From the NCBI GenBank assembly GCA_015657535.1, contig JADHZB010000262.1, positions 1 through 64,000 on the forward strand: a DNA stretch of 64,000 bases, written 5' to 3'. Each line of letters opens with the position of its first letter. Positions within the stretch are counted from its first letter, which is position 1. Under the pieces are notes generated by a model. That model made no database searches. It was not told the origin of the DNA and worked only from the letters and a program-made list of their open reading frames with translations. This DNA is from Nephromyces sp. MM_2019. Its lineage: Eukaryota > Apicomplexa > Aconoidasida > Nephromycida. Below are positions 4,542-63,800 of this stretch, piece after piece. A program made the translations under genes and the position numbers.

Positions 4542-5622
4542 ATGACATTCTGTGGTCGTGCTCTGGTTTATGGGTGTAATGGCTCCCTAGGTCAAAGTAT
4601 AGCAAAAAAGTATATGAATTCTAATTGGCAAGTTTTGGGTTGTGACTTACAGATGAGTTATTTACCACATTCTCACCTATTGATGCCAAAAGGATCTAAC
4701 ATATCTGAGCAAGAAGAGCATGTCGAGTCGTTTATAAAGGTAAAATCTATTAAAAAATTATTTTCACCATATTCAAAGATAACTTGAGCACTACCTGAAA
4801 TAGATAACTTGGTGCTGAGTTATTCACTTTGATTAATCTTAATAAGAATTTTAAATACACATTAGTCAGAAACTTGTGAAGAAGGTTCTCTACTTGATGC
4901 AATTATTTGTACTAGCGGTGGTTTCAGTGGTGCAAACGCGAAAGATCCTGACTTTATTTCAAAATCATATGAAATGATTAACTCAACAGTGTTCCCTTCC
5001 TTGATTTGTTCCAAGTTGGCTTCCAAATACTTAAAAGTATGATTCAATTTTACTGACCACTTTGTTTATTACACTGATGAAAATTATTGATTAAATTTCA
5101 GAAATCTGGTCTATTGGTATTACCAGGAGCTGCACCAGGACTAGAGCCATCCCCATCGATATGTAAGAATGTTTATAATTATGATTTCGAAAATAATTTA
5201 CCTTGATTTGCTCTAATTTGTTATCATTTGATATTTTTATTTCAGTAAGTTACTCTGCATCTAAGGCCTATATTCACTATTTAGTTAAATCTCTGTCTCA
5301 TGCTGACAGTGGAATTCCTAAAGGTATCTATTATATTATTGTACTGTTTATATTTCTTCATTACACAATGAATAAAGAATAAATGTATTACATATAAAAT
5401 TTTTGAATTTAAGGCTTAAAGGTTGTGGGACTCGCTCCAGTGACTTTAGACACTCCAATAAATCGATCAGCAATGCCTGATCAGGACCCTTCAAACTTCA
5501 CATCTCTTGAATTCATATCAGATGAAATCTTAAAGTGGTCAAACAACACTAATTTGTTAAAAAGTGGCTCAATTTTCAAATTTATAACAACAAATGGCAA
5601 AACAATAACTCAAATTTATTGA
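4542..5622 (+). CDS. QDPR: Dihydropteridine reductase (SDR family)
   Basis: Five exons: 4542-4739, 4866-5036, 5102-5162, 5246-5323 and 5414-5622. All GT-AG junctions keep the frame (phases 0, 0, 1, 1) and give 238 residues, against about 244 in human QDPR. This SDR enzyme uses NAD(P)H to reduce quinonoid dihydrobiopterin in the cytosol. Visible features are an N-terminal Rossmann motif YGCNGSLG (G11, G14, G17), a central TSGGFSGANAK that matches the family's GGW.GGNAK, the catalytic pair Y146 and K150 in YSASK, and the near-diagnostic LAPVTLDTPINR plus GS..K.TT.G.T at the C-terminus. The match is collinear from end to end, so the family call is strong. The physiological substrate in an apicomplexan is less certain, because these parasites often lack classical biopterin pathways. 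Confidence 0.93.
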
Positions 5623-8600
5623 AAATTACAAGTCATGTATTTTCCTTGGCTATATTGTGGGGCTTTTTTACATTATTTTCTAATATATAAGATAATTTTA
5701 TTCATTGAATTTTTTCACAGGATTTACTTAAACAAGAAGTCTCAGATTATCATGATTTATTTAGAAACTCAAATAGTTTTATACAGTTGTAAAAATTTAA
5801 AGCAAAACATACTTAATTTTTAAATGTTGATCAACATAGCAACTCTTAAATTGTATCTATAACGACTAAGCTTATTTTAATACATTTTTATAATTTATAT
5901 ATTGAATCTCTGTCCCGGAGCTGCTTATTATTAGTCCACCTATAAATTATTTAAATCATTTTCACTTGGTTCATAGAGCTTAGATTTCTAAAAAAAATAA
6001 AAAGGAATGCTATTTCTATAAAGTAGTGTATAATGTTCAAGTGTTCATACAAATCATGTGGTAAATATTTAGGATTCCCTTATGTTGTTTAGATGATTCA
6101 ATAAGATATGGAACTCAAAACGAGTTTAGTAACAGCATATCTAAAAACGATTGGCTTTATTTTAGTCATGTTTTATATAGGCTAAATTTAATTTGGTACT
6201 TAGATAAGTAAGAATTGTTTTATTGTAAAATAAACCGATTATCTAAAATGTATAAAATAAATTCAGATGTATTTTCCCAAGTGTCTAATTTAATGTTTAT
6301 TTTTTGACTTGGAAGAATTTATTAACACATTTTAGGGTCTAGAATTAACTAAAATACAAACATAAATTTTCAGGATGAAAAAAATTTCTATGATTTTATA
6401 GAAACGAATTAAATTTATTGTACAAACATAGATGACGCAATACTTTTAATGTTAAAAGTGTTGCGTGTGTAAAACATGTAATGTAATGTAAAGAAATAGG
6501 TGATATGAGCAATCGTGGGTATTCAATAACTTACATATATTAAAAAAAAATGTTAATTCTTGTGATAAATCATGTGCGCTTAAATGAAGATATTAGTATA
6601 TATATTAATCAAGCTTGGTAATAATTCTAAATTTCTTTGGTGGCTTAATTTTCAATAATATCCAAGTGTGCTAATTTGTGTTAATTTATACTTGTTAAGG
6701 AATTGTTTTTATAGCAGTTGAGATGTTAGTTTAAAAAAAAATTAAGAAACATTGTATGTTAAAATTATATACGTAAAAATATTTTAATTCAAGTTGCTTT
6801 CGTGTGCGAAATGTGTTTTTATTTCCAATTTTTTTGATACGAGATTTACCTAAACACAAATAGTGACGAAACAATAAATACATTAAACCAAACATGAAGA
6901 TTTCATAGGATTTGCTAACAACAAAAGTTAAAAATCAATAAAAACACTATTAGTTTTGGAGGCTACGAGCTTATATTTTTGCGCACGTAATAAACAAGAA
7001 GGGTTACAATAGAGGTGTTTTAACATATTGTTAGTTGACTTAGGTTCGCACGAATTTTTCTTTTGTTGGAAAAAACAGGACAAATAAAGCATACTAGCAA
7101 ATTACAAAGCTTAAATTTTATTCTTTTTAAACTAAAATTAACAATAACATTTTTATGGTATTGTATTAGGCATAATTAAACTCGATAATTCGTCGAAGCA
7201 TTTTAGATAATATTCTAAAAATTAAGTCATATCTTAATTATACATTCACAGCAAGAAACCATCATAATTAGAAATTTATTAATCATATTCTCAAATAATT
7301 AACATATCAAGATTCTTGGATATTTAAAAAGGTAAGAACATATTATACACTAAATAACATAAATAAGGAGCTAAGAAGTTGTCAAATAACTCCATAACAG
7401 TTCATTATATATATATATATATAACTTATCGATAATTGTAGTATAGAAATTAGGTATTATCTTCTTAAGATATCAACATAGATAATTCATCAAATTTTTA
7501 TAAAAGTTATTGGATAAGAATTTAATTTGTATCTAATAAATATGTGTACTATTTTTTCAATATTTTCACATATATTATCCTAAGTTTGATATATTAATAG
7601 TGCAATTTTATACATTTGGAAATTAAACTAATTATATCACAACTGATATAATATATATACTAAAAGTTTTTAAACCTCGATACATATAACCTAGATCGTA
7701 TAATTAGACATAACATTTTGAATCTATATAACTAAATGTTGTTTTAAATGTATTGTTTTGAATGGTTTTATATAATATAATTAAGAAATAATCTAATATA
7801 TATTAAACAAGTCAAATATATATATATATATATATTGTAATGAGTAAACTTTTCAATTACAATAAGCTCCACACTCAAAAACAAATCTTTAGGTAAAATG
7901 AAGATTTATTGTATAACAATTCAATTAGTATTCTTAATTTTGAATTTGATTAAATAACATTTTTAGTTGTAATTTTTAGAAAAAGTTTTTATATTCAATT
8001 GTTAATATTAAAAAATAAATTTTACTACACAAAGGATAACATATAATTTGATAAAGTTAAGAAAATATATATAGATATGTACGTATATAGATATATACCT
8101 TATTTAAGTACAGTTATAATGAATACAAAACTTAGAATACTCTATAAAGTGATAAAGAGTATTTTTTTTTCAAATTTTATACAATAATATTAAGCAAAAT
8201 ATAAATAAAGAATAAGTAGATAAAATTGTAAAATACTAAGAATCATAAACTGCATATATTAATTACATGTATTATTAAATATATAATATCGAAGTACATG
8301 CAATTAAGTGGTTCTTTTAATCAATAATTTTATTAATATTGAAAAGCTAATAAAATAATTTTCTAATTATGTAGGCATCACTAGATAAAGTATGACAAAC
8401 ATGACCAGAGACACCTATAAGCTTTAGCTTAATAATAAGCTATTTAAGATTTTTTAGAGCTCATTTTTCTTGTTATAATCTTGGGTTTAACTTGTATGAT
8501 GATCGTACAAATGAACGATTTGATTAATTTTTGGTTTTTTTTTTTTTAAATCATATATCCTTTACTAGGGATGCCATTTTAAAGTTTGTTTATATTGCTA

Positions 8601-11011: not shown

Positions 11012-13281
11012 TTACTTGAAGTGTGAATCAGCCTCCTCAATTTTGCCGAGGTTGCGATAGCAACAAATCAAATTTACAAGCGTGTCAGGATGATCCGGTT
11101 TCTAAATGTCATAAATTATTAGTTTTTTATATATATTAAATGTTATAGCAATCTGCATTGAATTCAATGTGGATAATTGTATATTTATAAATTTATGTGA
11201 AAATGCTGACATTGTGTATTTGTAATTGTAATTGATTATGTGTAAACAAATGAATATTATAGACTGAAATGTGCAATTAAGTTCATATAATGAATTTAAT
11301 TTTAGTATATGAAACATATTTTTTTATCTGGGTGTTTGTGAATGAGAGTATGAAATTAAGTATAGTAAGGGTGAATAATTGAATAATTGAAGGTATTTAA
11401 TTGGCAATGTGTAAAAGAGTGTCTTTAGTTGAATATATTTAGATAACTTTATATAAATGTGTATATAGAACTAATATAAAATTGTACCAGGTTGTAGGCC
11501 TTTAGTAAATCTTCGAGGGCTTCTGCCCAATGTTTTCTATACATGTTACAGATGGCTTTACCTTTGATGATACATAAAAGTATATTAAAATGTATGCTTT
11601 GGATCATTTAGAATTAATAAAGTTCAATAATTATGGAATAAATACGATTAAGATAATTTATAATACATTAATCTGTGTGTAATATACATACCATTGAGTA
11701 ACATGATAGATCCATCTGATTCAATCATGTTGTTATCACTGCATAATGCATGAATATCACCAAATGTCAGGTATGCTTCTTTGTAACTACCCTCAGCTAG
11801 GTTGTGAAGAGAATAAATACAATTTGATTTTGAAAAAAGAGAATAAATGCGTACAGTTTTGTTAAGTTTTAAGTTAAAATTTTCTATACATTAAACATGT
11901 GATGTATTTTTATATTAAAAATAAGTGGTAATAATAATCTTGAAAAGATTGATGCACATTCGTTCAGCTTACCTATACAACTCCAGGCAATAGCTAATTT
12001 ACCTAATGTTTCATCTTCGTCAAATATATTCTTGGTATAAATCATTTATGTAAACACAGATTCAGTTGTGTAAAATATCGCAGCATTATCATTACATATA
12101 TATATATATATAAATATATATATATATATGTCCTATATAATTATTATATACATGTATGTATGACTCAAATGATTGCTGTTCTTGTACTTAGGGTGTTTAT
12201 ATGAGTGTATATAAAATTATAGAGGTTATCATTGATATGCAGACAAGCTATAATAATAGTGCTGCAAGTTTATTTTGACTGCGTGTGCTTATATGAATCA
12301 AAAATTACATTGAATTGTGTGCATAGAATAAGTTTGCTAAGGAGTTTAAAAGAGTGTATTTTATGCAAGTTATAAATTCATATATATTAGTATGTAATAA
12401 CATTAGATTATATGAGATTTCTATCAGTGAGATGTAAAATTTTTATACTCATATATATGTGGTTTTGAAACAATTCAAGAATTCGATTTTGAAAGTTTTA
12501 CCTCATCAATGTGTAGTAGACCAAACTTGCCTAATTTAAGGTAAATTACGGATTTCAAAACCAACATTTCTATTGAGCCATTTTCACATAATTTAAGAGC
12601 CATTTTATCTTCACCCAAGTATGCAAGTGAGGTTGCACATATAAAGCGACATGTTAAATCTGGTATTTTGCTGATTGCATCAATTTGTTCAATAAGTTTG
12701 GTGTCATCTACATCATTTTCCTGAAATTGTGATATATGTAAGATTTGCAAGAAATTAGTATATTAAAAAGGTGTATGCTTTCCTTACCTTTATCATCAAG
12801 TTAGAGTGGAGGGCAAGAGCTTTCAAAGAAGGCTTATTATTTTTTGCATTATTGACGATTTGTGAGTGAGAGATTTCGCCTAATTCAAGATTTATACGTA
12901 ATAAAAACGACATATATTCCTCAGACGATGAGTCATATTTTCCAGTCTTCAATAATTCTACACACTTGTGAAAATAGCCCAAGAAGTAGCTATTTCTAAG
13001 CTGATATCACAAAAGTGTATGTAAATCAATTTATATGAATGATTATCATCTTAGGCAAATATATTGTAATTTGCGTACTATTATAGTTTCAAAAAATTGT
13101 GCGAACATGATCTGTATTGAGGAGTTTGCAATAAAAAGAGTTTATAATGAAATCAGTATACATATATGTACACATTGTTTAAGTTTTGTAAAAAATTCAA
13201 ATTTATAAATATAGATATAGGATATTTCAGATGTCATCAAAAATGATTAGGATTAACCTGTTGCATCATACTCTCAGACAT
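11012..13281 (-). CDS. COPE: Coatomer subunit epsilon (epsilon-COP)
   Basis: Seven minus-strand exons: 13281-13258, 13000-12788, 12720-12502, 12030-11973, 11796-11692, 11561-11488 and 11101-11012. All are GT-AG and phase-consistent, giving 260 residues. Epsilon-COP is a TPR-like helical subunit of the COPI coat, which binds alpha-COP and acts in Golgi-to-ER retrograde traffic. Diagnostic pieces appear in order: LRNSYFLGYFHKCVE at the N-terminus, YLGEDKMALKLCE, IFDEDETLGKLAIAW (family IDED.TLTQLA.AW), SYKEAYLTFGDI, MLLNGKAICNMYRKHWAEA (family LLNG.A.C.M...W..A) and HPDTLVNLICCYRNLGK (family YPETLVNL). The protein is about 40 residues shorter than the human one, mostly at the C-terminus after LGKIEEADSHFK. 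The first exon is only 24 bases, and its assignment is the least certain part. Confidence 0.9.
12095..12129. repeat. (TA)n microsatellite in COPE intron
   Basis: A nearly pure TA dinucleotide tract, interrupted once by AAA, inside the third intron of the coatomer epsilon gene. Confidence 0.8.
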
Positions 13282-14150
13282 CCTTTGCAATGTGTAAAAG
13301 ATATTATAAAGTGTGTAAATAGGATAGTTGTGGTATATATCAATAAGAATAGTGTTGTGTTTTATGCTAAATGAGGTTGGCTTACTACATAAATGTTAAA
13401 GTTTTCTAATTAATTTATATTAAGGTGTCTAATATTTCTGATTGATATGTTGTGGTTAAAAGGGTTAAATGTATATGTATGGGTACATATATTTGATATA
13501 CCAAAGTAAAAGTTGTATTATGTGTGCATGTTACTTCTGTTTATCAAATCTACTAGCCTCCGAAATTAATTAGGTATAACTGTGTATATTTTCGTTATAT
13601 TGATTTTTATCCATATTGTTATATATATTCAAAACATTTTCATATACGTACTTTAATATTAATCGTTATCCACAAGTGAGTGAGAGATTAAAGTTGTGTG
13701 TAGATGCTACTTATAATTTGTTACAGCCTAGAGCATCAATTCAGACTAATGTTTGTGTTTGCTTGTGTGTATGTATGAATGAGTGTGTGCTGAGTGTTAG
13801 CCCATTGTTTTTAAAATCTCAATGTTTAAATGTGCAATAGACAGTTTAAATATGAAAGATTTCAACATTTAAAGGCCAGGTATAAAAAACATAAATATTT
13901 TCACATTGTTCAAAACAAGCTCATTATTATATGTAATTTGACTTATTATGTATCTTATAAAACAAATCAAAGGAGAAATTGAACCGTTATTTGATTTGTT
14001 GTTGTTCTAACGCTTAATATTACGATATATGATAGTCAAATTATTTTTCTACTTCTTATTTGTTTCTCCTAAGACTTAACGTTTACCAACGATTTAATTG
14101 AATAAATGAAGTTTCAAGATTTTTATGAATTTGGTTTATTTTTAAATAGA
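13282..14150. other. Upstream of COPE; left flank of the bacterial block
   Basis: Should hold the COPE promoter. The short plus-strand frame at 13616-13840 ends in a Cys/Val-rich translation of a TG repeat and looks spurious. Somewhere between about 13.9 and 14.15 kb host-like sequence gives way to bacterial-type sequence. I cannot place the junction exactly. Confidence 0.5.
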
Positions 14151-14159
14151 AGAGGGAAA

Positions 14160-14565
14160 TTTTTTTCTTATAATCTTCTATCCTTGCATAGCGTCGAAAA
14201 TAAAGAGAAATTGAGAACCATTACTAACGTACTATTTTCCTGAATCATAAAATAATATGTTCAACCATCAGATTAAATTTTCGAATATCATCAACTAAAA
14301 TTTTACTTTTCCATAAAATTTTTGATCTGATAACGAAAAGGCTATTAAAAAACCTTTATGATCAAGAATATAATTATTAGAACCATTTATACAAGGCTCT
14401 GAGAAAATTTTATTTCAGTAAGTTTCGTTTTAACAGTTATTTTTTAAATTTTTAGTTGTACCATTACTAACAAAATTACCATTATTATTAGTGCTACTGC
14501 ATGATATAAAAAAAATAGAAATCAATGAAGAATTTCATAGAAAAAAGATTGTCTTTAATATTAAG
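14160..14565 (-). pseudogene. bamB: BamB-like outer-membrane lipoprotein remnant
   Basis: Read in three frames on the minus strand, this begins with a bacterial lipoprotein signal: MKF, then after a one-base shift SSLISIFFISCSS with a lipobox cysteine, then an Asn/Gly-rich tether. Next come SEPCINGSNNYILDHKGFLI and AFSLSDQK, and after a lost base in an A run, ILWKSKILVDD. GxLxAxxxxxxKxLWK is the repeat of PQQ-type beta-propellers, which build BamB (YfgL), part of the BAM complex that assembles outer-membrane beta-barrels. Only the first blades are recognisable; then stops accumulate. Its place directly after a YfgM-like gene on the same strand matches the common bacterial yfgM-bamB order, which supports both calls. 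It is clearly non-functional. Confidence 0.55.
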
Positions 14566-14597
14566 AGCGATTTGTAAAAAGTAAGATCATAATCTAA

Positions 14598-15209
14598 TTA
14601 TTTATTTACCTTATTCATTTGGGTTAAAATAATTTTTGTTTGTTCTTTTATAAAATCATTAACATCTTTTTGAGCTAAAAGATTCTTAGCATAAGCCTAA
14701 GCAGAAACTAAATTTTGTTTTTTGATATGAAATAAAATTTTTAAAAACAAAGAAGAGTCAAAATATACTTGTCGATTTTGAAAATAGCTCAAATATTCAA
14801 GCCCCTTATCTTCATAAGATAAAAATTCTGTATATCCCTTATCTAAAATAAAACTTACAAAATATAATCTTGCCAAAGACCTAACTAAATTAGAGTAAGA
14901 AGTATTTTTAACAATATTTTTGATTAGAGAAACATGTTCCTTTTCTCTAAGTTAAAATTTGTAATAAGAAAGCAAAACTAAATCTCTCCCTACATTCTCA
15001 TAATGCATATTTTCTGCATCATTTAGAGTAAAATTTAAATTAAACCCTTTTTTATTAATTGAAAATTGATAAAAAGATTCACTAAATGAAATTTGCTCTT
15101 TTCTTGTATTTTTTTTTCTATTTTCCCATAAAAAAAAAAGTTAACAAGCTAATTAAAGAAAACGCCAATATCGATAAAAAACTATACTGACAATAGATTT
15201 TTTTTTCAT
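14598..15209 (-). pseudogene. YfgM-like (TPR_21-type) bacterial protein remnant
   Basis: The minus-strand frame from the ATG at 15209 is broken by a shift after the start region and by in-frame TAA codons. It gives a charged N-terminus, a hydrophobic membrane-anchor-like stretch, then a helical domain: ENVGRDLVLLSYYKF, stop, KEHVSLIKNIVKN, SNLVRSLARLYFVSFILDKG, QNLVSA, stop, AYAKNLLAQKDVNDF. The pattern of one N-terminal anchor plus alanine/leucine helices around LAR/LA suits YfgM-like periplasmic chaperone-associated proteins. Sequence similarity alone would be weak; adjacency to a BamB remnant on the same strand is the main support. Alternatively it is another anchored helical protein. Confidence 0.4.
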
Positions 15210-15260
15210 TCAATCAAAAAATATAAATTCAAAAATTCTTTTTAAAAAAACAAGCATAAA

Positions 15261-16795
15261 TCATAATATAGAAAAATATTTTTTTAACAATCTAAGCATA
15301 TGGCTTCTTGCTAAAGGAGCAGCAAATCGTGACCCACTCCCCATGTTGCTACAATAGAATGAAATATAAAATTTAGGTTCTGATGATGGAACAAAACCAA
15401 CAGATATAGAATGATTTCTTTTTTATGTTCTATATTTTTCAAATCGTCAAAATCTTCATCTATGGATTTTTTTTGAATCAACTGTGCTGTCCCAGTTTTA
15501 CCAGACATAGTCATTGAATTGAAGTTAAAACTACCTCTATAGTAACCAGTCCCATCTATTTCATTAATGGTTTTATATAAAGCGTCTTGAACTTATTTTA
15601 AATTATCTACAGAAAAACCTAATCGTCTTGATTGGATAGTTCTTTAGCAATGTTGGGCTGATATAAAAATCCTCCATTTGTAATTGCAGAAATTAACATT
15701 GACAATTGAATTGGCGTAACTAAAGTGAAGCCCTGACCAATAGCAAGATTTAAACTATCTCCTAGCATCCATTTTTGACCAAAATTTTTATATTTCCACT
15801 CAACAGAAGGTAAAAAACCTTCTTTTTCATCTGATAAATCTATACCTGTTTCTTTACCAAGACCAAATTCTTGAGCAGCATCCAATATTTTTGATGTACT
15901 ATGATTTTAGCAATGTTATACATTTAACAGTTACAAGAAAATTGTAAAGCCTTAGACATATTTATTAACCCATAACCAGATTTTTTAGTGCAACCAAATC
16001 TTCTAACTCCTATAAAAATAGAACCTTTGCATTCAAATTTTTGATCTATAATGATACCAGATTCAAGAGCCGCTAGAATTGTTACAATTTTAAACACTGA
16101 ACCTGGGGGATTGGACAGATTTATTTAATAAAGGATGTTCTGGATCTGAATTAATATAGACCATTCCTTATAGGAAAGATTAACCATAGAATGAGGATCA
16201 AATCAAGGAAGTGATATCAAAGATAAAATATTACCAGTGGAGTACTCATTAACTACAACACTACCACTCTTATATGGAATAAGGTCAAAAAAATCCTTTT
16301 GTAATTTTGCATATAAATTAGTAAAAACATCACTGCCTTTAATGATATTAGATATTTTAATAAGCTTATTTAACTTACCAAAAGCATCTTTTTCAATTTT
16401 TTTATAACCATCATTACCTTTAAGTTGATTATGATAAAATTTTTCTAATCCAAACTTACCTATATTTATATTTTTTAAATTTTGACTATACTGATCTTGA
16501 AAGCCCCTTTGCAAATATCCCACTGCATGAGATAAAAAAATTTCGTACGGATAAATCCTTGCATTTTCTATATCAATAAAAAAATTGATCAATAATTTTT
16601 TATTTTCTTCTAAAAAACTTGCTTGCTCCCAAAAGATATTACTTTTATTATTTTTTGTCCATATTTGAGACTCTTCTTATTTCTGATAAAGTTTTTGCAC
16701 AAAAATCATTGTTCCATTTAAAAGTTTTCTTTATTAACAAAATTTCTCCTCCTAATTGAGATAAATCTCTACTAGAGAATGCCCCAATGGAAATA
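15261..16795 (-). pseudogene. mrdA: Penicillin-binding protein 2 (MrdA) pseudogene, bacterial origin
   Basis: PBP2 is the peptidoglycan transpeptidase of the bacterial rod-elongation machinery; no apicomplexan needs it. Reading several minus-strand frames gives, in order: part of the dimerisation domain (ARIYPYEIFLSHAVGYLQRG, then IGKFGLEKFYHNQLKG); the active-site segment PGSVFKIVTILAALESG with SxxK (about 16093-16110); SCN (15930-15938) within ALQFSCN; LNLAIGQGFTLVTPIQLS; SGKTGTAQ with the KTG motif (15481-15505); and a C-terminal SISVGFVPSSEPKFYISF and GSRFAAPLARS. All three catalytic motifs survive. The frame is broken by a TAA near 15600, one after SCNC, and shifts near 15.4, 15.9, 16.1 and 16.6 kb. 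The N-terminal membrane anchor and RGxIxDRxG region are missing. The gene stops where a TnpB remnant begins on the other strand. Confidence 0.88.
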
Positions 16796-16802
16796 TTGAA
16801 AA

Positions 16803-17010
16803 GATATTGAATATATAAAGGAGAAAGCGTTAGAATATGGCATAAAGTGCTCCACGGGCTCAGAGAGAGGAACATCAAACACGTGTCCAAAATACCAAGC
16901 TAGACAGAAAGTAACAGGAAGAAATTGAAAATCTAGAACATGTAACTTTATAGGTCATAGAGATCTATTAGGAGCAATGAACCTTCAGAAGATTGAGAGT
17001 ATCACTCTCC
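16803..17010 (+). mobile_element. tnpB: TnpB (IS200/IS605 OrfB) zinc-ribbon remnant
   Basis: The plus-strand frame from 16803 reads LEYGIKCSTGSERGTSNTCP, then KYQARQKVTGRN, a TGA, KSRTCNF and GHRDLLGAMNL. This is the C-terminal zinc ribbon of TnpB/OrfB transposon-encoded nucleases: GTSxTCPxC, then CxxC, then HRDxxGAxN. Two of the four zinc cysteines are gone (the second is Tyr, the third Ser) and a TGA sits where the family often has an aromatic residue. Nothing remains of the RuvC catalytic core upstream; that sequence is instead the truncated PBP2 gene on the other strand. The element therefore probably inserted into, or recombined with, mrdA and was then lost apart from this tail. Confidence 0.75.
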
Positions 17011-17043
17011 ATTTAAAAACACGTCATCTGTTTCTAAGTATTC

Positions 17044-17899
17044 TTATACTAAATATTCTTTTATATATTCCATAAAACTGCTTGTATTTCCTTCATTTTT
17101 AAGATTGTTAATCTCCTTATCAAAACCATTTAGGATTTCGATATCTTGTGATTTTCCCTTAAATACAGGAATAATCACAATTTCTGCAAAAATACTTTAA
17201 TATGTAGGTTCATAGCCTCCGAAGGAATGTATAACTCTTATGCAAACTTCTAAAGCTTCTTTAAGCGAAGTTTGTTTGATTAATTCTTCTGATACGAATC
17301 TTTAAAACTCACTACTGAAAGATTCTTCACCATCGATGATACTGGCAGCTCTTTCAAATATTTCTAGTGCATGATTCTTTATAAAATACTTATCTGGATG
17401 ATGTCCTAAAAGAGTCTGAAAACTCGATAAATCATTTACAAAAGATGCAGTTAGACGAGATTGAGTCCAGGTGGATTCTCTTTGCTCCCTAAAAATTGTA
17501 TTATGACTCAGTAGAATTTGTATCATGTTCAAATCACGTGAAAGCGCAGCGTATTTTAAAGGACTAATGTTACTGATTCCACTTATATTTAAATCAATCT
17601 CTAGATTACTAAGAAGTAATTTTACCATTTCTACCTGAGCACTCAACAGCTATCATTATTGCTGTTGTTTGCCCTATAAAAGCTTGAGTATTCACATCCA
17701 AATTAGGATTTTTTAATAATTCTTTCACTGTATTTAGGTCGTTTACTCTAACCACTTTTAAAAAAATTTCGTTAACCTCTCTCTCTTCTGAAATATAGAG
17801 CTTATTCCCATTTTTAGAATTTGGATTTGCCTCATGAGAATCCATGGAAGAAATTTGAGAGTTATCTGATTTTCTTTGAAGTTTTCTAAAATATATCAA
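17044..17899 (-). pseudogene. Ankyrin-repeat protein remnant, bacterial-type
   Basis: The minus strand reads from the ATG at 17899 through a Ser/Asn-rich N-terminus, then ankyrin units: EIFLKVVRVNDLNTVKELLK, NPNLDVNTQAFIGQTTAIMI, a frameshift near 17645, AQVEMVKLLLSNLEIDLNIS, ISPLKYAALSRDLNMIQILL. A non-ankyrin tail continues past a shift (LIKQTSLKEALEVCIRVIH), through an in-frame TAA near 17197 and on to a TAA at 17044. The leucine pattern, TPLxxA-like turns and DLNMIxxLL helices define the ankyrin fold. Ankyrin proteins are frequent in intracellular alphaproteobacteria, though eukaryotes have them too. Bacterial origin is inferred from its place in the block. Confidence 0.65.
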
Positions 17900-19060
17900 T
17901 TTTCTGAAAAGATTTTTATCTATAATAAATTACTTTTATATTTAGTGTTATATGTATTGAAAAAGATTTGCAGTGTTATAATAGCAAAATGATCACAGTA
18001 ATTGATTAGTATTTTTTATGCTATAAATTTTTGGAATTGTTTTAATTATGTCAAAGTTTAATGTAAACATAACTTTCTGAGTTATCACTACTTACTAGCT
18101 TCGCGAATCAGTAAGTTGTGATACGTTAATCAAGAATAAAAAATTTGCCTACCCACTTTATGAATCCTGATCTTTTGCACCAATATTAAGAATATCACAT
18201 TTTTATAACATTAGAAAAAATAAAATTTTACCGCGGGAAATGATTTAGAAAATTCACATGTTATCTACATTAAGCATTTTGTTATATTTTATTTCTCTGG
18301 TAACTTTATCTAAATATCTTTGAAAAAAAAGCTTATAAGACCTTCACAGACAAAACAGCGTAATTTCTTTGATTTTCTCCAACAGGCTTGAAAACAATTT
18401 AAGAAAAGAATCTTTGCATTGCCTTAAATGCAAAATAAGGAGTATATCTCAGCTCCAGTAACAAACACGTACTAACATATCATGACAACATGAAATGTTG
18501 TTTAAAACATTACACATATCAATACCAAAAGTCCACTATACTGTATTACGACATTCATTCACTTAAATAATAATAATGAAACAACAATTTTGATTATAAA
18601 CTCCATGAAGCCGACTCTTTTTAAATTGAAAACTATCTATTCGCTTTTATCTTTTTAGTGATCCCATACTTTAGAATCCCCATTCCTCCAAATTGATTTG
18701 TGCTTTAAAAGTTGCAAATATATATTACACACAAGAAAATATATCTTCAAATTTACTTAACAAACCCTTGTACATCTTTTACAATATGTAGAAGAATTTA
18801 GTATGCCCTCAGACACAACCCTAACGCTTAATTAGGAAAATCCATTTTAGGGCAAAATTCGCATCGTCAATTTTGAATACGTTTAATTATCAACTCGTAT
18901 TGAAATGATAATTCAATTGCAATGAATTATACCCTTTTTTTATGAGTTTTGTTCTACTAAATGAAATATTACGATTAGATTTTTAATCCACTACAGTACT
19001 TGATCCACGTGCCGTGTTATTGTATCGGATTAAATTTACTATATATATATACAATCAAGA
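17900..19060. other. Right flank of bacterial block and ENT paralogue 2 promoter
   Basis: AT-rich with no recognisable gene. The junction back to host DNA lies somewhere in 17.9-18.5 kb and cannot be fixed by eye. The last 200 bases precede the ENT start. Confidence 0.5.
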
Positions 19061-37953: not shown

Positions 37954-40871
37954 TTAATTTACTTCAGCGTGTGTATGGCTAATAGCCAAGGGGGTTACTG
38001 ATGAGATTGCACAATCAGCATAAAAGCGACCAGGAAAAAGTTCATCTTTAGGACATGCAGCAACCATTCTAAAAAGATATGAAAGTAATTGAGATATAGG
38101 GGTATTAATACAGAAGAAATTAAAAGGATATAAAACTGTTTATGTAAAGTGGTTTAGGAGTATTAAAACAATGATATAATTTTTTATTGAGGAGTAAATT
38201 TGTGTTGTATATATTTCCATTTGTTGTTTAATTTTATCTCTATATTTTTAGATTGTAATAACATCAGAAATAATTTAATTAATGAAGATATGAGTTCGCT
38301 TACAATTGTGTAGCAGCTCCAGATTGAGAATTTTTAAATAATATTGGTCCCAAAAGATAGTAAATAGAGCGGATAAAAATATTAGTAGGACGTGCTAAGT
38401 CAGTCTTTACAACACCAGGGTGAATTGCATAAGTTGTTGCCGTGGTGCTAGGGTCTTCCCAAAGTCTATTGAGCAAATGCAATGCGAGAAAATTTTATTA
38501 ATATTAGTACTGTGGATTATATTGCAGATATTACAATTATTAAACACGTAGCTTTTCACTAATTAAATTCAAGTAAGTTTCAATTAAATGTTGCTCATGC
38601 TTACTTCTGTTGAAGTTTGCGTGTAAACCATATGTTGCATATTTTCGAAAATGCATATTGAGCAGTGCTGTTGTATCTTTCAAGAGATGGCTTAATGTAA
38701 TTTATAATATTTGGGTTCTGTTGTGGTGTAAGATTTAGGAAAATTAATAACAAAAACATATCTCGTTATGGTATAAGGGGGGACAAGGTTCAAAAGCAAT
38801 AATATTGCTATTGTGTGTAAATGTATATAAAATTACAAAACAAGAACAAGTGGTTATCAATTTAAAGTGCTTAGGAAAAGTAATTCTGGGTGGCAAAGCA
38901 AATATTATGAGGATAACTTTATCTGGGAAAAAGCTGTGGGCGGCACTGCTGATATTAATGATTTTTCCATTTTGTTTCTTAATGGAACTTAAAAGTAATT
39001 TTGTTAAAAAAAAATGTCCCAAATGGTTAGTTGCAAATTGAATATCAACGCTATCTTTAGAAAAGGATCCTACCTTAGGTGCCATAATACCTAAACGAGA
39101 ATAAGCAGATCCCATTAAACTTTTTACAAAATTAAAGGGTGGGTATGTTTAATGTGCTTATTTAAGTGCATAATATTGTAAGTGAATTAATCCACTAATA
39201 TAGGAGTATTAATTTGACCTGCATTGTTGAAAAGCATGTCAATCTTAGGGAAGTTGGCTAAGACTGTATCTGCGAATGATTTGACTGAATTCATGTCATC
39301 AAGGGATAGTGGGGCCATAAAAATATAATCCCTTCAAAAAAGCATTAAGAATAACTAGCTAGTAGAAATATTCAAACTCATCTATATTTATATGTATATA
39401 TTAGCTTGTTATGATGTATATACTCTATTGTGTTTAGGGTGTTTATAATATACAAATATGTGAAATGTCATCTAATTGAGTTTCTGTTGTTTAAATAGGT
39501 TCAGTTTAGGAAATTTGTGGAAAGGGAAAGTGAAGTGTATGAACTTTATATAAATCTTCTACATTTGACTATACTTTAATATAATGTTAATCATATTATA
39601 TATTAAAATGTTTATATAAAATCTAATGCATAGTAACAATATGAAATTTGGTAGCATGTTTTTATGAACTTATGTGAGTATGAAATCTATAAATATTTAC
39701 CCTACGATTAAGACTTAAGAATAATTCGATTTATAAAAATAAAAGCAGTCTATAAATTGTTGAAACAATAGCAAAAATATCCATAAAATAACATACTCAG
39801 ATACTCCTGTTTCATTCACCAATTCTGATATTACGGCCCTAGCTTTATTTTCATCTCTATATCCAATAATAATTTTAGCACCCCATTTTAAAATTTGAAT
39901 AGCAGTAGACTTTCCAATGCCTGATGTAGCACCTGTAATTATTAAAAAAATACTCATTCTTAGTTTCTATTAGGCATTAGTTAATAATAAATGTCAATTT
40001 TACAAAGGTTTACACTTTAAAGATGTGTAAGTTAAGTTTTTGTATTGCTCAGGAATTACCTGTAATTACAACGAATTTTCCACTAAGGTTAGTGCTTTGA
40101 ATAATTTCCTTATTTAATTGTCCACCTTGAGCAATTGACCTAACCGTTTGATACCATAAAGCTCTTGTCGTCATCATACCAAATAAAATAATCGAGATTG
40201 GAGCCTTCTTTATTCTCGAGTATATCAAAGCTCCACCCATTAAATAATCCGATGCAAATATGCTAAAAAAAAATTATGAAAATTAAATTTATATGTTCTG
40301 ATAGGCTATAGATATTTTGATAGAATGATTGAATTTCATTTTAATTCAAGTCATTATCGAAACATAGATAAAATTTTCGCTCAGTTTTTAATTGATAAAT
40401 CATAAAATAGTCAAAAGAAATTGTTAATTTTCATAACTTTAATTTATAAGGTTGATCATATCTAAAAATTATTTATAAATGTGTATCAATATTTCCAATT
40501 GGGGGTTAATTACTTTATTATACAAATATATATAAGTATATGCAGTTGTGATATGTGCGTATATGGGTCTCTATTTGGTTTTTGTTTTGTAAGTGCAATA
40601 ACTACAGATTAGCTTATGCATTAGCTGTTTAAGGTTTGTATGTATAAGTAGTAATATATAGTTTGTATAGGTCTTAGATGTCTTTAAAGGAACATGTTAC
40701 ATAGAGTAGAGGTGCTTTTATGGTAGGTTCATCTATAAAGCATGCATATTTTGCATTCTCTTACCCAAAAGTAGCCATTACAAAAGCTAAGGCTTTGGTT
40801 GAAGGTTCTTGAAGCATCATAAAGACAGAGTTGGAAGTTGGTTGTTTCAATAGCTTTTTATCGTCAGCCAT
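37954..40871 (-). CDS. Short-chain dehydrogenase/reductase, retinol-dehydrogenase-like
   Basis: Eight minus-strand exons: 40871-40765, 40262-40060, 39932-39797, 39331-39219, 39090-38918, 38717-38605, 38465-38304 and 38068-37954. All phases agree, giving 373 residues. An N-terminal region of about 95 residues with hydrophobic stretches (LYMGGALIY-like, SIILFGMMTT) precedes the SDR core, so it is probably membrane-anchored. Core motifs: TGATSGIG (T103-G110, cofactor binding), NNAG (184-187), NHLGHFFLT, ISSAAH with the catalytic Ser, YAFSK (Y265, K269) and HPGVVKTDLAR. This order is that of the RDH11-14/WWOX-type classical SDRs, which use NAD(P)(H) on retinoid, steroid or lipid carbonyls. The natural substrate is unknown. 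The use of the AG before ATTATGGCACC for exon 5 is set by the NNAG match. Confidence 0.9.
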
Positions 40872-43849
40872 TTTGAGTTAGGGAGCTTCAGTCTGAAAGA
40901 TTTTGTATGTTAGTTAGTTCAATGAATCTTGAGAGATGTGTTTTTAAAGAAAAAATGTTATTAGCAATTAAGAATAAATTAATTTTGAGTTTAATATAGT
41001 TTAAGAAATGGAGAGCTGAGTGTATTGTTGATATTTAATAGTTAGTGAAGGATGATCAAAGACATTCCTTCTTGAGCCTTTACATTATTAATTAATTCTT
41101 TCAATTAGAGTCTTAATTTTTACACGTGGAAAATGAACAAGAGTAAACTTATTTCAAATCCTAAAAGTATTGAGCAACTATTTCAATACTAGCTAGCTTG
41201 TAATGCTTCTCGTGTGCTGAATTTTTCTAACAAGTCCGATGTTATCATCAACTTTTGATAAAAGTCTCTCTCGGCTTGTGTTTATTCAGAATGTTTAAAA
41301 AATGACAATAAAACACTTGTCATTGAGTTAATTCTGTCGTGGGTGTCTTAGCTTCTGCTAAAACCATAATCATGTATAGTGTTTATGAATATTCTCCTTA
41401 AGGGCACTTGAATCTAAATTTTAGATTAAATAAAAACTGAAAATAATAATTTCAAATACAAGAATCACTACTTTATTGTATTAACAAAAATAGCAAATAA
41501 TTAGCTTAACAATGGTATATAAACATTACGTAAACAAATTAATCAACTAACTGTTTCATTTAAATATACTAATTTTGTAAACTACTAACCTAAAGCTGCT
41601 TATACCTATATCTCGTTATTTCTAATTTAAGCACATATTTAAATAAATACTGTCAATTCGTTTCTATAAAATTCCAAATGATCTTATTGATTCTTATTAA
41701 TGAGAGCTTATAGACTCCACAACTATTTTGACAAGGTTTAGTCTTTCCTCAAAACCTTTGCAATATGATTCACTCTGTTTAAAAAATAAATCCTCCGAGG
41801 TTGTTTGTATTTAATTCAAGAAATTTCTTTTCGATTTATGAGATTAAAGTTATAAAAGATCCTCCAAGCCTTTAACATTGTATCCTATAAGCCTATCCTA
41901 AGCCCTCTTTTTTTTCTTGGAAAATTACTTGAATTACACTAATTTACTTTATTAAAATCCTTACAGATATTTGATTTAGTTTTCACAAGAATTCCTTGAG
42001 ACATTTGGCTTACTTGCACAAAATTTCTCTAAAATGGTTGAGTTGGTCACGCAAAGTACATTCGTATCACTTTTCTTTTTCTGCCTCTGAAAATATCGTA
42101 AAAAAAAGCTCTTAAGAGTTCCCAAAAAGATTTTATCTCTATAATTTATTCATACGTGATACCTTGAGAAGCTATCATTAAATTCTAACAGGGTATAAAT
42201 AAAAGTTAACTCAAAAGGTAGTTTTTGTTATAAGACTTTTGAAACATAATCATGTGGAATTGGGTTTTAGTAATTTTGGGTGAGGAAAAAAGCTTATATT
42301 TATTCCCTTGCTTCAAAAAACATTTTAACGATTTGAGATTTAATTTTTTTTAAAGTTCTTGGATAAGGAAAGACAAGCTTTGATAGTAAAATTATAATCT
42401 TAAGAGTGTAAAGAATTCCAAATATAAGTTTTAAATCAAGCTATTTGAGTATTATTCAAAGCTTAATAAATTATATTTATATAGGATTTGTTAAGCTAAA
42501 CAAACAATAAATCAAATTCGTATTATGTCAAAAAAATGTTTTCAACTTTAAAATAGTTTTAGTAACATAATTTTCAATGTTAATGTAATAAATTTTGAAC
42601 TATTACTAAAACATTTTGATAATTTTTCAAACAAACTCTGAGTTGATGTGGGTTTAATTAGAAAAAAAGTTTTTAATAAGAATACTCTCTTTATTCAAAA
42701 ACTTGTAAGAAATCTACTCCAAACGACTCAGAAAGGTTGAAAAGATATTATGTTATTAGATATTAAAAAAATTTAAAATAAGTGGGTCAAATGAGTTTGC
42801 GTTTGTGCGATATCAAAGATAATTATAGGTTAAAGTAAGATTGGCGTTATTTGACTACTAGATAAATTGTTTATATTATGAAATGCAAGAATGGTTTTCG
42901 TGGCCATATTTCAAAGATAAAACTCAAAAGGTATGCATTTGTTAAGCACTACTGCTTCAATAAGATTTAAAATTTTTTTTCTTTGAAAAAGAATTTCAAA
43001 TTATAAATAAATATTATAAAATTTAAATTGGCTTTAACCTAACTTGTTCATAAGTTCTATTCACTGTATTTTTGTTTTAGTTTGTTAATTATAATAAATC
43101 TATTCAGGTTAATTTGACAGAAATTCGTAGTAACATGAAATGAAAAAGTGTTGTAAATACTATCTGTTATATGAGTGTGTGTGAGTTATAGGTAATAAAA
43201 GAAATATTGATTTGGTGGGTGTAAATTGTGAAAACGTTTTATCTGAGATTAAATTGGTATGAAAATGTAATTCTCTGTATGTTTATATGCTAAGATACAA
43301 ATATTCTGATCAATTTTTTAATCTTTCGGATTTGATATGTAGAGGATATTTTTGGGGAGAGATTTTGGACTAATATGTACTGAGCTTATATGGTCTGATA
43401 AATAAAAATTAGCAAATATGCTGGAACGGCTATTTAAATGGCTCATAAATGTGTTATCATTTTAAGGGTTCAAGTATGAATTCAAGTGAAATCGGTTTCA
43501 AGGATATTGTTGCACTGAGTGTGCATTTTCAAGTGGATAGTACGAATATAGGAATAACTGGAATTAATAAAATAAAAAGTAACTCTGATTTAAAAAAATA
43601 ATTTAATAATTACATTCATAGAAAATCATATACAAGCATCTAGCTTCTAGCCTCGTAGAGTAGGGTTCATTTTGAATTAAAAATTTGTATAAGTTATATG
43701 AGGAGGATTTTATAAGGAGTAGCCATTAATTGGTTGCAAGGTATAGAATGAGATCGTGTCTTTGAAAAGGTCAGTATGTAAAATAATAATTGTAGGATCA
43801 AAACTATTATGTGAAATCTATGTGTGTGTGGTTGGGTACAAAATTGTTA
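40872..43849. other. Gene-free region between SDR and kinase
   Basis: About 3 kb. Most of it is G-richer on the plus strand, as in the surrounding minus-strand genes, but about 41.5-42.0 kb is C-rich. No frame is protein-like. Confidence 0.55.
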
Positions 43850-60813: not shown

Positions 60814-63800
60814 ATGGCCAGCACTACACCCCCCAAATTAGCTCAGGATTGTAAAGAGATTTTACTTGTACAAAATTATTGTCATGTTGCAAAAATATTA
60901 CAATTTTCTGAAGCAAATAATCTCAATGGAAATCAGTCAGATTGGTAAGTTCGATTTCTTGACAATTTTGAGATAGTTTGAAAGAATTTCTTTTATACAC
61001 TATCACTGAGTAGTTATTTCTGTATTACATATACATGAGTATAATTACACATATACATACAAATTTTATCAATTCTGTATCGTTAAGTATGATATTCATA
61101 TAATCTAAGATATTCTCTATGACCTTTCTCAGATTATAACTACACATATCAGATGTAAATATATGAACACATTATCATTTCCACAGGAATAACAGATTAA
61201 GAGAATTCAATTCATTATTTACCCTTTTCCATCAATGGGAAAACAAGGAGGACACCTCTCGTCTCGTTTTTCATCAAATATGTCGATTAGTTGATAGACT
61301 CTCCAGGATCAATCCTATTGAAGAAATGCGCAAGACAATGGTCATTATCAGACGCAAGATATTCGAGCTTGGTTATGCACCTTCTTTTGAACCATGTGTT
61401 CCTTCTCGTTTCCTATGCTTGGATGACTTGACACCAATTTCTATGGATAGCAACCCTATCTGGAAAAATATTTTTGTTGAATCACATGGACGAATAACAA
61501 CATTACACAGAGCTTTGCACATAAACCCTATGCTACATGAATATCATTATAATATGCATCACTTTATAATGATTGACGAGAGTGGACCACTACCTAGAAC
61601 TTGGAAGCATTTTTTAGCTATTTTAACCGCTTCTAGACATCACTCTGAATATATAACAAGGATGGAGAGCTGCTTATTCTTAGCCTGTGGTGGAGATATC
61701 AATTGGTTACAAGACCCAAGCAGCATACCTGTTAAGTTGAAGAGAATTCAGGTTGGTTTGTATTTTTTAATTCAATTTTTTAGGCTAAGCAGACTCTTGT
61801 TTAACTTCTTTGACAACCACACCAAGCTTATATGATTTATAAGAAACTTTGTCTTAATTTTTATATATTCCTAGTACATAACATATAAGTTAACGAACTC
61901 AAAACCAATTAATTCTACTTAAACAGAATCTGATTAGTCTGCTAGCACATAGACCTTGGGAGGTGACACAGGAAAATTTTCATGATATGATGACAGGTGT
62001 CCAGCCATGGACAATTGCAGAGCTATGCCAATCGTTATTAATTATAGCGTAAGTTTTATAGTGTTATTTAACAAATGCCCTTCATCTTTATGAAGCTTGT
62101 ATGACTAAATCTTTTCTTCCTACATCGTTCGAATTTCATATCCACCTTTCCTTGACGTCATATTCATTTTATATGAATCATGCTTATTCTAAAAAATTTG
62201 ATGGGATATTTTTTTACTCATCAAACTTCTCAAATATATCCAGATTATCTAAATTGATAATATCCAACCTTCTACCATTTTATCTTTCGACACATCTTAT
62301 CAAGATTATAATCACCAATATGATACAACCTTAACCCATAATATCTTCTTACTACAAACATCTATACAAATCAATGCTATGACAAAACATAATTACAATA
62401 TTGGACTTTACAGACACTACCTAGCTCTAACAAGTATGTGCTGGGGACTTGGTTTATCATGTGAAGATTTCGAAGATTTGGGAAGTGATGATTTATGTCC
62501 TGAAAATCCTGATGAGTTTGATGAGTCTGAGAGCTTATCACCTTCAGTCTATGACGATGTCAATTCTGATGCAGATATGAGCACTACAAGGCATGAAAGT
62601 GACACAGCCATTTCCTCATCAACTTTCCAAAGGAATGATGATTATTCACAATCTCTCAACCACAAAATAGAGACAGAAAAATACTTACTCAGTTCACAAT
62701 TGCTTCCCTGTAATTCACATAGAGACACTTCAAATTATGGCTTGAAAGACTTAAAACAAACAATACTTACGCCTATGAACCCATCACAACTTGATGGTAT
62801 TGTTAATCAAAATAGTAATGGCTATATCAAACCATCAAATAATAGGTCCGAAAGTAATGCCTCATATACACCCTCTGAACGACGTAACTTACATACAGGG
62901 AAAAATAAGAATCAAATGGAGCTAAATGAAAATGGTTTGAAGATATATATATCTTTTGTTTTATCTTTATCTAGTTGTCTACTTGAGGCAATATTTTATC
63001 ACGAATAGATTTTTATCAATCATGAAATAATATATATTTAGCACCTTATCCCGACATCTGTAAGGATTTATAAGATCTGTTGCATCACACACACCATTAT
63101 ATATATATATCAGGTACATCAGAAATTATTGATGATCGAACAAGCCGTGAAAAAATCGACTTCGAGTGTGTAGAGCAATTCAAGGAAATGTTAACACTTC
63201 TTGAAAGTCTGAAATTAGATTCCAGTGAAATGGAAAACTATGCCATTAGAGTTAAAAGGAAAGAAGTTGGTAAGCCTATATTCCCTTTTACATACTTTTT
63301 TTACTATTCAATTTTATATCTTACCATATATAAATGCGTGAAATATACAACCAGATCAATCTGCATTAAAGGATGTAATGAACCAAGCACCCAGATTAAA
63401 AACAGCTTATACAGATCAGTTTAGGAGCGATGACACTGAATATGAAAATTTCCAGTACAAACGGTTCACCAAAAAATGTTAGAATTTGCTTTATTAACCA
63501 TTTCATAAAGATAGTAAAAATATCAATACAATTTTTTTAATCATTTACTATTAAATTATTCAAATAATTTTTTAAAACCATTCCATTCATGTCGAAGATA
63601 AGGAATTCGCTTATTAAAGCCTTTACCAATTTTATTTTTACAGTAACTCGCTTGAGAAGCTACACACTTGATGATAATTGTATCCTCATTCTGGATCGCT
63701 ACTATCCTAACTCTTCAACCCTACTCTGCAATGAAATTGAATATCTTACAAGCATGAATTACCAGAGGTCTAATCTTACATTACTTTTCATTATTACTAT

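Follow-up and report, generated by a model that had tools for sequence, protein, structure and literature searches.

How does a run of broken bacterial genes come to lie among the genes of Nephromyces, an apicomplexan and thus a relative of the malaria parasite? Here we address this question for the first 64,000 nucleotides (the window) of a 131-kb contig of Nephromyces sp. MM_2019 (JADHZB010000262.1, host contig C130), in which five neighbouring remnants (BamB, a YfgM-like protein, PBP2, TnpB and an ankyrin protein) had been taken, from the sequence alone, as endosymbiont DNA integrated into the nucleus. Matches to protein profiles or to a metagenome-assembled genome (MAG) show that all five are present. 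We put at about 0.9 the probability that the insert, known from assembled contigs alone, is a nuclear integrant of endosymbiont DNA comparable to the nuclear copies of organelle DNA (NUMTs and NUPTs).

A symbiont donor for the collinear block

The largest part of the insert in the window is a collinear block of three decayed genes (Table 1), which aligns with positions 5106–7756 of stretch L017 of the MAG ‘Rickettsia sp. MM_Alph2018’ at 90.7% nucleotide identity over 2,654 columns (blastn, E = 0.0), a match to a present-day symbiont genome that is far beyond chance. When an uninterrupted 95-aa segment of the PBP2 remnant was searched against prokaryote contigs, with one genome per species, 99 stretches fit the pattern and one of the 99 was confirmed, a single locus that is 93% identical (JADHZC010000011.1, ‘MAG: Rickettsia sp. 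isolate MM_Alph2018’). The counterparts in the MAG are intact (PBP2, 594 aa; the DUF2659/YfgM-like protein, 204 aa; BamB, 406 aa), the PBP2 copy matching pbp2_mrdA (TIGR03423) and BamB matching PF13360. Among the window copies, pieces of PBP2 match PF00905 and PF03717, both above cut-off, while a piece of the YfgM-like remnant matches PF10858 (DUF2659) below the cut-off that its MAG counterpart exceeds; about 60% of BamB is missing.

Because of the identity to a MAG deposited under the name Rickettsia, the donor is an alphaproteobacterium, as the original prediction had it, and the MAG itself, judging from names, markers and the literature, is presumably the alphaproteobacterial symbiont of Nephromyces. 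That some apicomplexans house such bacteria had also been anticipated: the alphaproteobacterial symbionts of Cardiosporidium and Nephromyces have been placed in the Rickettsiaceae, sister to Rickettsia (PMC7737231; this and the other papers cited here are drawn on in excerpt), and the donor MAG fits the Nephromyces member of this same symbiosis.

Could the remnants instead be host genes, mitochondrial or anciently inherited, or derive from a different bacterium? The ankyrin part of the window lacks a close match in the MAG, and ankyrin repeats are common in eukaryotes, both of which count towards such an origin, but relatives of this gene occur in the same MAG. For the collinear block the idea is refuted by a nucleotide match that takes in three collinear bacterial genes of one named symbiont MAG. 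For the remnants as a whole we regard this origin as practically negligible.

Decay of the block

A codon-wise comparison with the MAG, covering 853 codons, shows that the block carries 10 stop codons that arose by substitution (PBP2, three; YfgM, two; BamB, five) and 15 indels, 14 of which shift the frame, bearing out the expected breakage by stops and shifts in these three genes. Simulated neutral decay of the MAG codons yielded 8.3 stops at 5.6% change per site and 10.3 at 7%, and the observed number is that expected from neutral decay at 5.6–7% per site. Differences from the MAG amount to 7.9, 6.9 and 11.6% at the three codon positions, and the ratio of nonsynonymous to synonymous substitution rates (dN/dS) is 0.36 over 847 codons (PBP2, 0.31; YfgM, 0.54; BamB, 0.37). 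This value is a mixture: if constrained divergence is assumed to have a dN/dS near 0.1, neutral change accounts for some 5–6% per site and divergence on the symbiont side for what remains. The stops and frameshifts are as expected of decay without selection after transfer, with dN/dS a mixed signal. Functional endosymbiotic gene transfer calls for an intact nuclear copy; the remnants in the window are broken.

A mosaic of non-adjacent donor pieces

Where the PBP2 and TnpB matches meet (Table 1), the former ends inside the gene, whose MAG copy runs on past the junction point, and the TnpB reading frame on MAG contig C9 starts before that point. The TnpB fragment has matches at four places in the MAG, with identities of 86% (C9), 83% (C5), 82% (C4:144271) and 72% (C10:158363), the MAG reading frames at C9 and C5 matching TnpB models below cut-off. 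None of the four adjoins PBP2, the closest being about 15 kb off, on C10. The ankyrin gene shares 69, 68 and 66% identity with relatives on MAG contigs C2, C6 and C4 over 278–432 bases, and is nearer to a nuclear copy on host contig C561 (75%); one of its two pieces matches PF12796 and PF13637, both below cut-off. The five remnants thus stand side by side in the window, as predicted, but are not neighbours in the MAG, and they would represent at least three separate donor pieces if the gene order of the MAG is that of the donor. Descent from a single intact donor neighbourhood was rejected, the remnants being non-adjacent in the MAG and the pieces of a second insert, on host contig C1059, being likewise scattered.

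Table 1. Features of the insert and of the flanking host genes (positions in the window)
Feature	Position	Strand	Basis
Host equilibrative nucleoside transporter (ENT), left of insert, 448 aa	8772..10118	+	PF01733
Collinear symbiont block, all genes decayed: N-terminal part of BamB, YfgM/DUF2659, and PBP2 (mrdA) from codon ~86 onwards	14145..16774	-	blastn; stops and indels
BamB remnant, roughly codons 1–157 of 406 (152 compared); 5 stops, 5 frameshifting indels	14145..14611	-	Codon comparison
YfgM-like (DUF2659) remnant; 2 stops, 2 frameshifting indels	14598..15209	-	Profiles, codon comparison
PBP2 (mrdA) remnant without its initial ~86 codons; 3 stops, 7 frameshifting indels	15261..16774	-	Profiles, codon comparison
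PBP2/TnpB junction, 2-bp overlap of both donor matches	16773..16774		Donor match ends
Internal fragment of IS200/605-type TnpB gene	16773..16981	+	Four MAG matches
Decayed ankyrin-repeat gene, diverged member of symbiont family; right end not sharp	17006..17929	-	MAG and C561 matches
Host ENT, right of insert, 483 aa	19061..20512	+	PF01733

Other inserts in the host assembly

A single block of bacterial remnants had been proposed; the block is real, but it is a mosaic and not the sole insert, others being found on host contigs C1059, C561 and C1018. On C1059 the pieces follow one another in the order MAG C1 (-), C10 (+), C10 (-), C4 (+), C4 ankyrin (+), C10 (-); at the first, second and third joins the donor matches overlap by 6, 1 and 2 bp. 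Positions 39963–41303 of this contig are 92% identical to MAG C4, and the adjoining ankyrin copy 80%. One open frame joins part of HSP90 to the end of 5-FTHF cyclo-ligase, and the insert is flanked by the host LSm5 gene and a host RBBP4-like WD40 gene. On C561 a piece of MAG C3 (90% identity; 3 stops and 1 frameshift in 295 codons) abuts a C10 piece (94%) at 0 bp, and ankyrin stretches follow. The host gene for cytochrome bc1 subunit 7 lies on one side of this insert; its best two solved chains, 9g9t and 9fq7, which we take to come from apicomplexans or close kin, lead every other chain by over 30 orders of magnitude in E-value. On C1018 an ankyrin copy is situated about 2.4 kb from a uricase exon. 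Uricase is present on three host contigs (C548, C1090 and C1018); genes of purine degradation have been reported in Nephromyces and Cardiosporidium, the pathway having been lost in all apicomplexans known before (PMC6320678).

Nuclear integration or misassembly

The ENT genes to the left and right of the insert are unbroken, in keeping with the prediction that host genes on both sides stay clean, and share 32.8% amino acid identity. Four ENT genes on one strand stand within 20 kb (8772–28803, +), at 22–33% amino acid identity among themselves, and between the flanking pair lies a reading frame on the minus strand (12475–13006) that has no Pfam match.

The contig could in principle be an assembly chimera, produced when a contig from a symbiont strain undergoing decay was wrongly joined into contigs of the host: the sample presumably held symbiont DNA, decay with the observed dN/dS could arise within a degrading symbiont strain, and C561 is only 10.5 kb long. 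We nevertheless consider this quite unlikely, because paralogues of one host family occupy both sides of the insert and two independent misjoins would be needed to restore their cluster. The other mosaics, on C1059 and C561, and the decayed ankyrin copy on C1018 also speak against it, as does the failure to find a symbiont contig by either of two routes. A search of the host assembly with PF00905 returned two matches, both from the window's own PBP2, and three arbitrary 20-kb stretches of the MAG (60 of 996 kb in 11 contigs) gave no clear block against the whole assembly, the sole match being weak (157 bp, 70%; C349:21073–21229 against MAG C10 15976–16135). The same search with MAG C4:1–20000 recovered the known loci, and thus works at 66–92% identity. 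These searches thus give no sign that the assembly contains a symbiont genome, and they suggest that inserts are rare; since no clear block came from the 60 kb, the rule of three sets a rough ceiling of about 50 blocks of this kind across the whole MAG, the ankyrin family excluded. The flanking paralogues, the inserts in other host contigs and the lack of symbiont contigs in the sampled search together support nuclear integration, as originally proposed.

A separate observation concerns MAG contig C8 (L028, 13.3 kb), which matches host repeat-like DNA in two stretches of C1059 (L016 and L009) at 65–71%. This may reflect a host contig wrongly binned with the MAG, or a chance match between simple repeats.

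Several observations weigh against nuclear integration. The identities of both host and MAG come from names, markers and the literature. For the inserts in C561 and C1018, just one flank has an identified host gene, and the last two joins of the C1059 insert contain 167 and 14 bases without a MAG match and hence are not seamless. Some pieces are less broken than the window block: in 362 codons of the C1059 peptidase piece there is a single stop and no frameshift, and one ankyrin piece of C561 is free of both across 115 codons. The dN/dS of the block is not 1, meaning that part of its divergence was constrained; we read this part as symbiont-side divergence, but a donor strain that was itself decayed could give the same mix. 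Finally, 8 of the 15 indels fall in homopolymer runs of at least four bases, and a few could be base-calling or sequencing errors, against which stand the unbroken ENT frames next to the insert.

An apparent excess of ankyrin genes

Matches to the ankyrin family occur at six nuclear places, on C130, C561, C1059 and C1018 and, as short ones, on C1077 and C342. The last two are matches to MAG C4 of 176 bp (C1077:114045–114220) and 62 bp (C342:29218–29279). The ankyrin-type stretches of C561 (L008, 4199–7281, -) have open frames of 160–220 aa and are better preserved than the other nuclear loci. Set against the absence of a clear block from 60 kb of other symbiont DNA, the six places make a lead, albeit a biased one because the ankyrin family was the search handle. 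It is doubtful that transfer is selective, meaning that members of this family enter the nucleus, or persist there, far more frequently than other symbiont DNA. Such an excess could perhaps come from a multi-copy state, from abundant small replicons or from nearby mobile TnpB elements. Just as tentative is the suggestion, part of the same reading, that selective ankyrin transfer marks an early phase, still under way, in the flow of genes from endosymbiont to nucleus in an apicomplexan.

The same six places, together with the C561 frames of up to 220 aa and the C561 piece that is intact over 115 codons, are what one would cite for the view that the host has used, or still uses, one of the transferred genes, with an ankyrin gene the best candidate, while the rest came along. 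We find this very unlikely given that the C1059 and C1018 copies carry 4 stops each relative to the MAG C4 gene (with 3 frameshifts in C1018 as well), that the longest open frame of the window copy is 115 aa, and that the count is biased by an ankyrin query having been used to find the loci.

Other features of the host sequence

Compared with solved structures, the right-flank ENT has matches to 6 sequences, all of them nucleoside transporter chains, which presumably come from apicomplexans or close kin. A protein search with one host ENT across 5.8 billion proteins gave 7,787 candidates, none of which scored. At 61167–61832 (+) the window contains a reading frame with a PA26/sestrin domain (PF04636, E 8e-18), a domain that, to our knowledge, is unusual for an apicomplexan. 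Uricase, the bc1 subunit and the ENT all fit a nephromycid host. The GC content of the window is 28.8%, against a value of 34.4% given for C. cionae (PMC7737231), which makes Nephromyces the more probable genus; the ‘MM’ of the names probably stands for Molgula manhattensis.

A proposed route to the nucleus and its implications

We suggest that fragments of the symbiont chromosome may be released when symbionts are degraded in the host cell, probably by lysis, and reach the nucleus, where they would be joined to one another and inserted at a break, with overlaps of 0–6 bp and little or no homology. Capture would presumably have taken place during the repair of a double-strand break, probably by an end-joining pathway, the site in the window being intergenic space within the nucleoside-transporter gene cluster. 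Neutral decay of the insert, which is likely without function, amounts to about 5–7% per site.

Nuclear Wolbachia inserts, most of which are decayed, offer one parallel. In insects and filarial nematodes, too, DNA of intracellular Rickettsiales resides in the host nuclear genome (PMC3998919, PMC12693587), whereas here the host is an apicomplexan protist, the symbiont is a relative of the Rickettsiaceae, and the pieces are about 0.1–2.7 kb long and scrambled. Mosaics with tiny overlaps and neutral decay are the habit of NUMTs and NUPTs. The present insert resembles these (PMC7037861) in being a mosaic of non-adjacent donor pieces with tiny overlaps and neutral decay, but its donor is a bacterial endosymbiont rather than an organelle. 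The kind of event is therefore already known. In the available portions of PMC7737231, horizontal gene transfer is raised once, for purine genes, and nuclear symbiont DNA is not mentioned. Among the matches listed for literature that links Nephromyces, Apicomplexa or protist endosymbionts to transferred genes or integrated DNA, none described symbiont DNA in the nucleus of an apicomplexan, although an earlier report may exist; the accession and name of the MAG led to nothing relevant in the literature.

Fragments of a symbiont in the nucleus of its host would constitute a fossil record of their partnership, showing that DNA of the symbiont gets into the nucleus, that it becomes scrambled en route and that the donor strains differed from the one that has been sequenced. 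Nephromycids would thereby offer a protist in which the early transfer of DNA from endosymbiont to nucleus is open to direct measurement.

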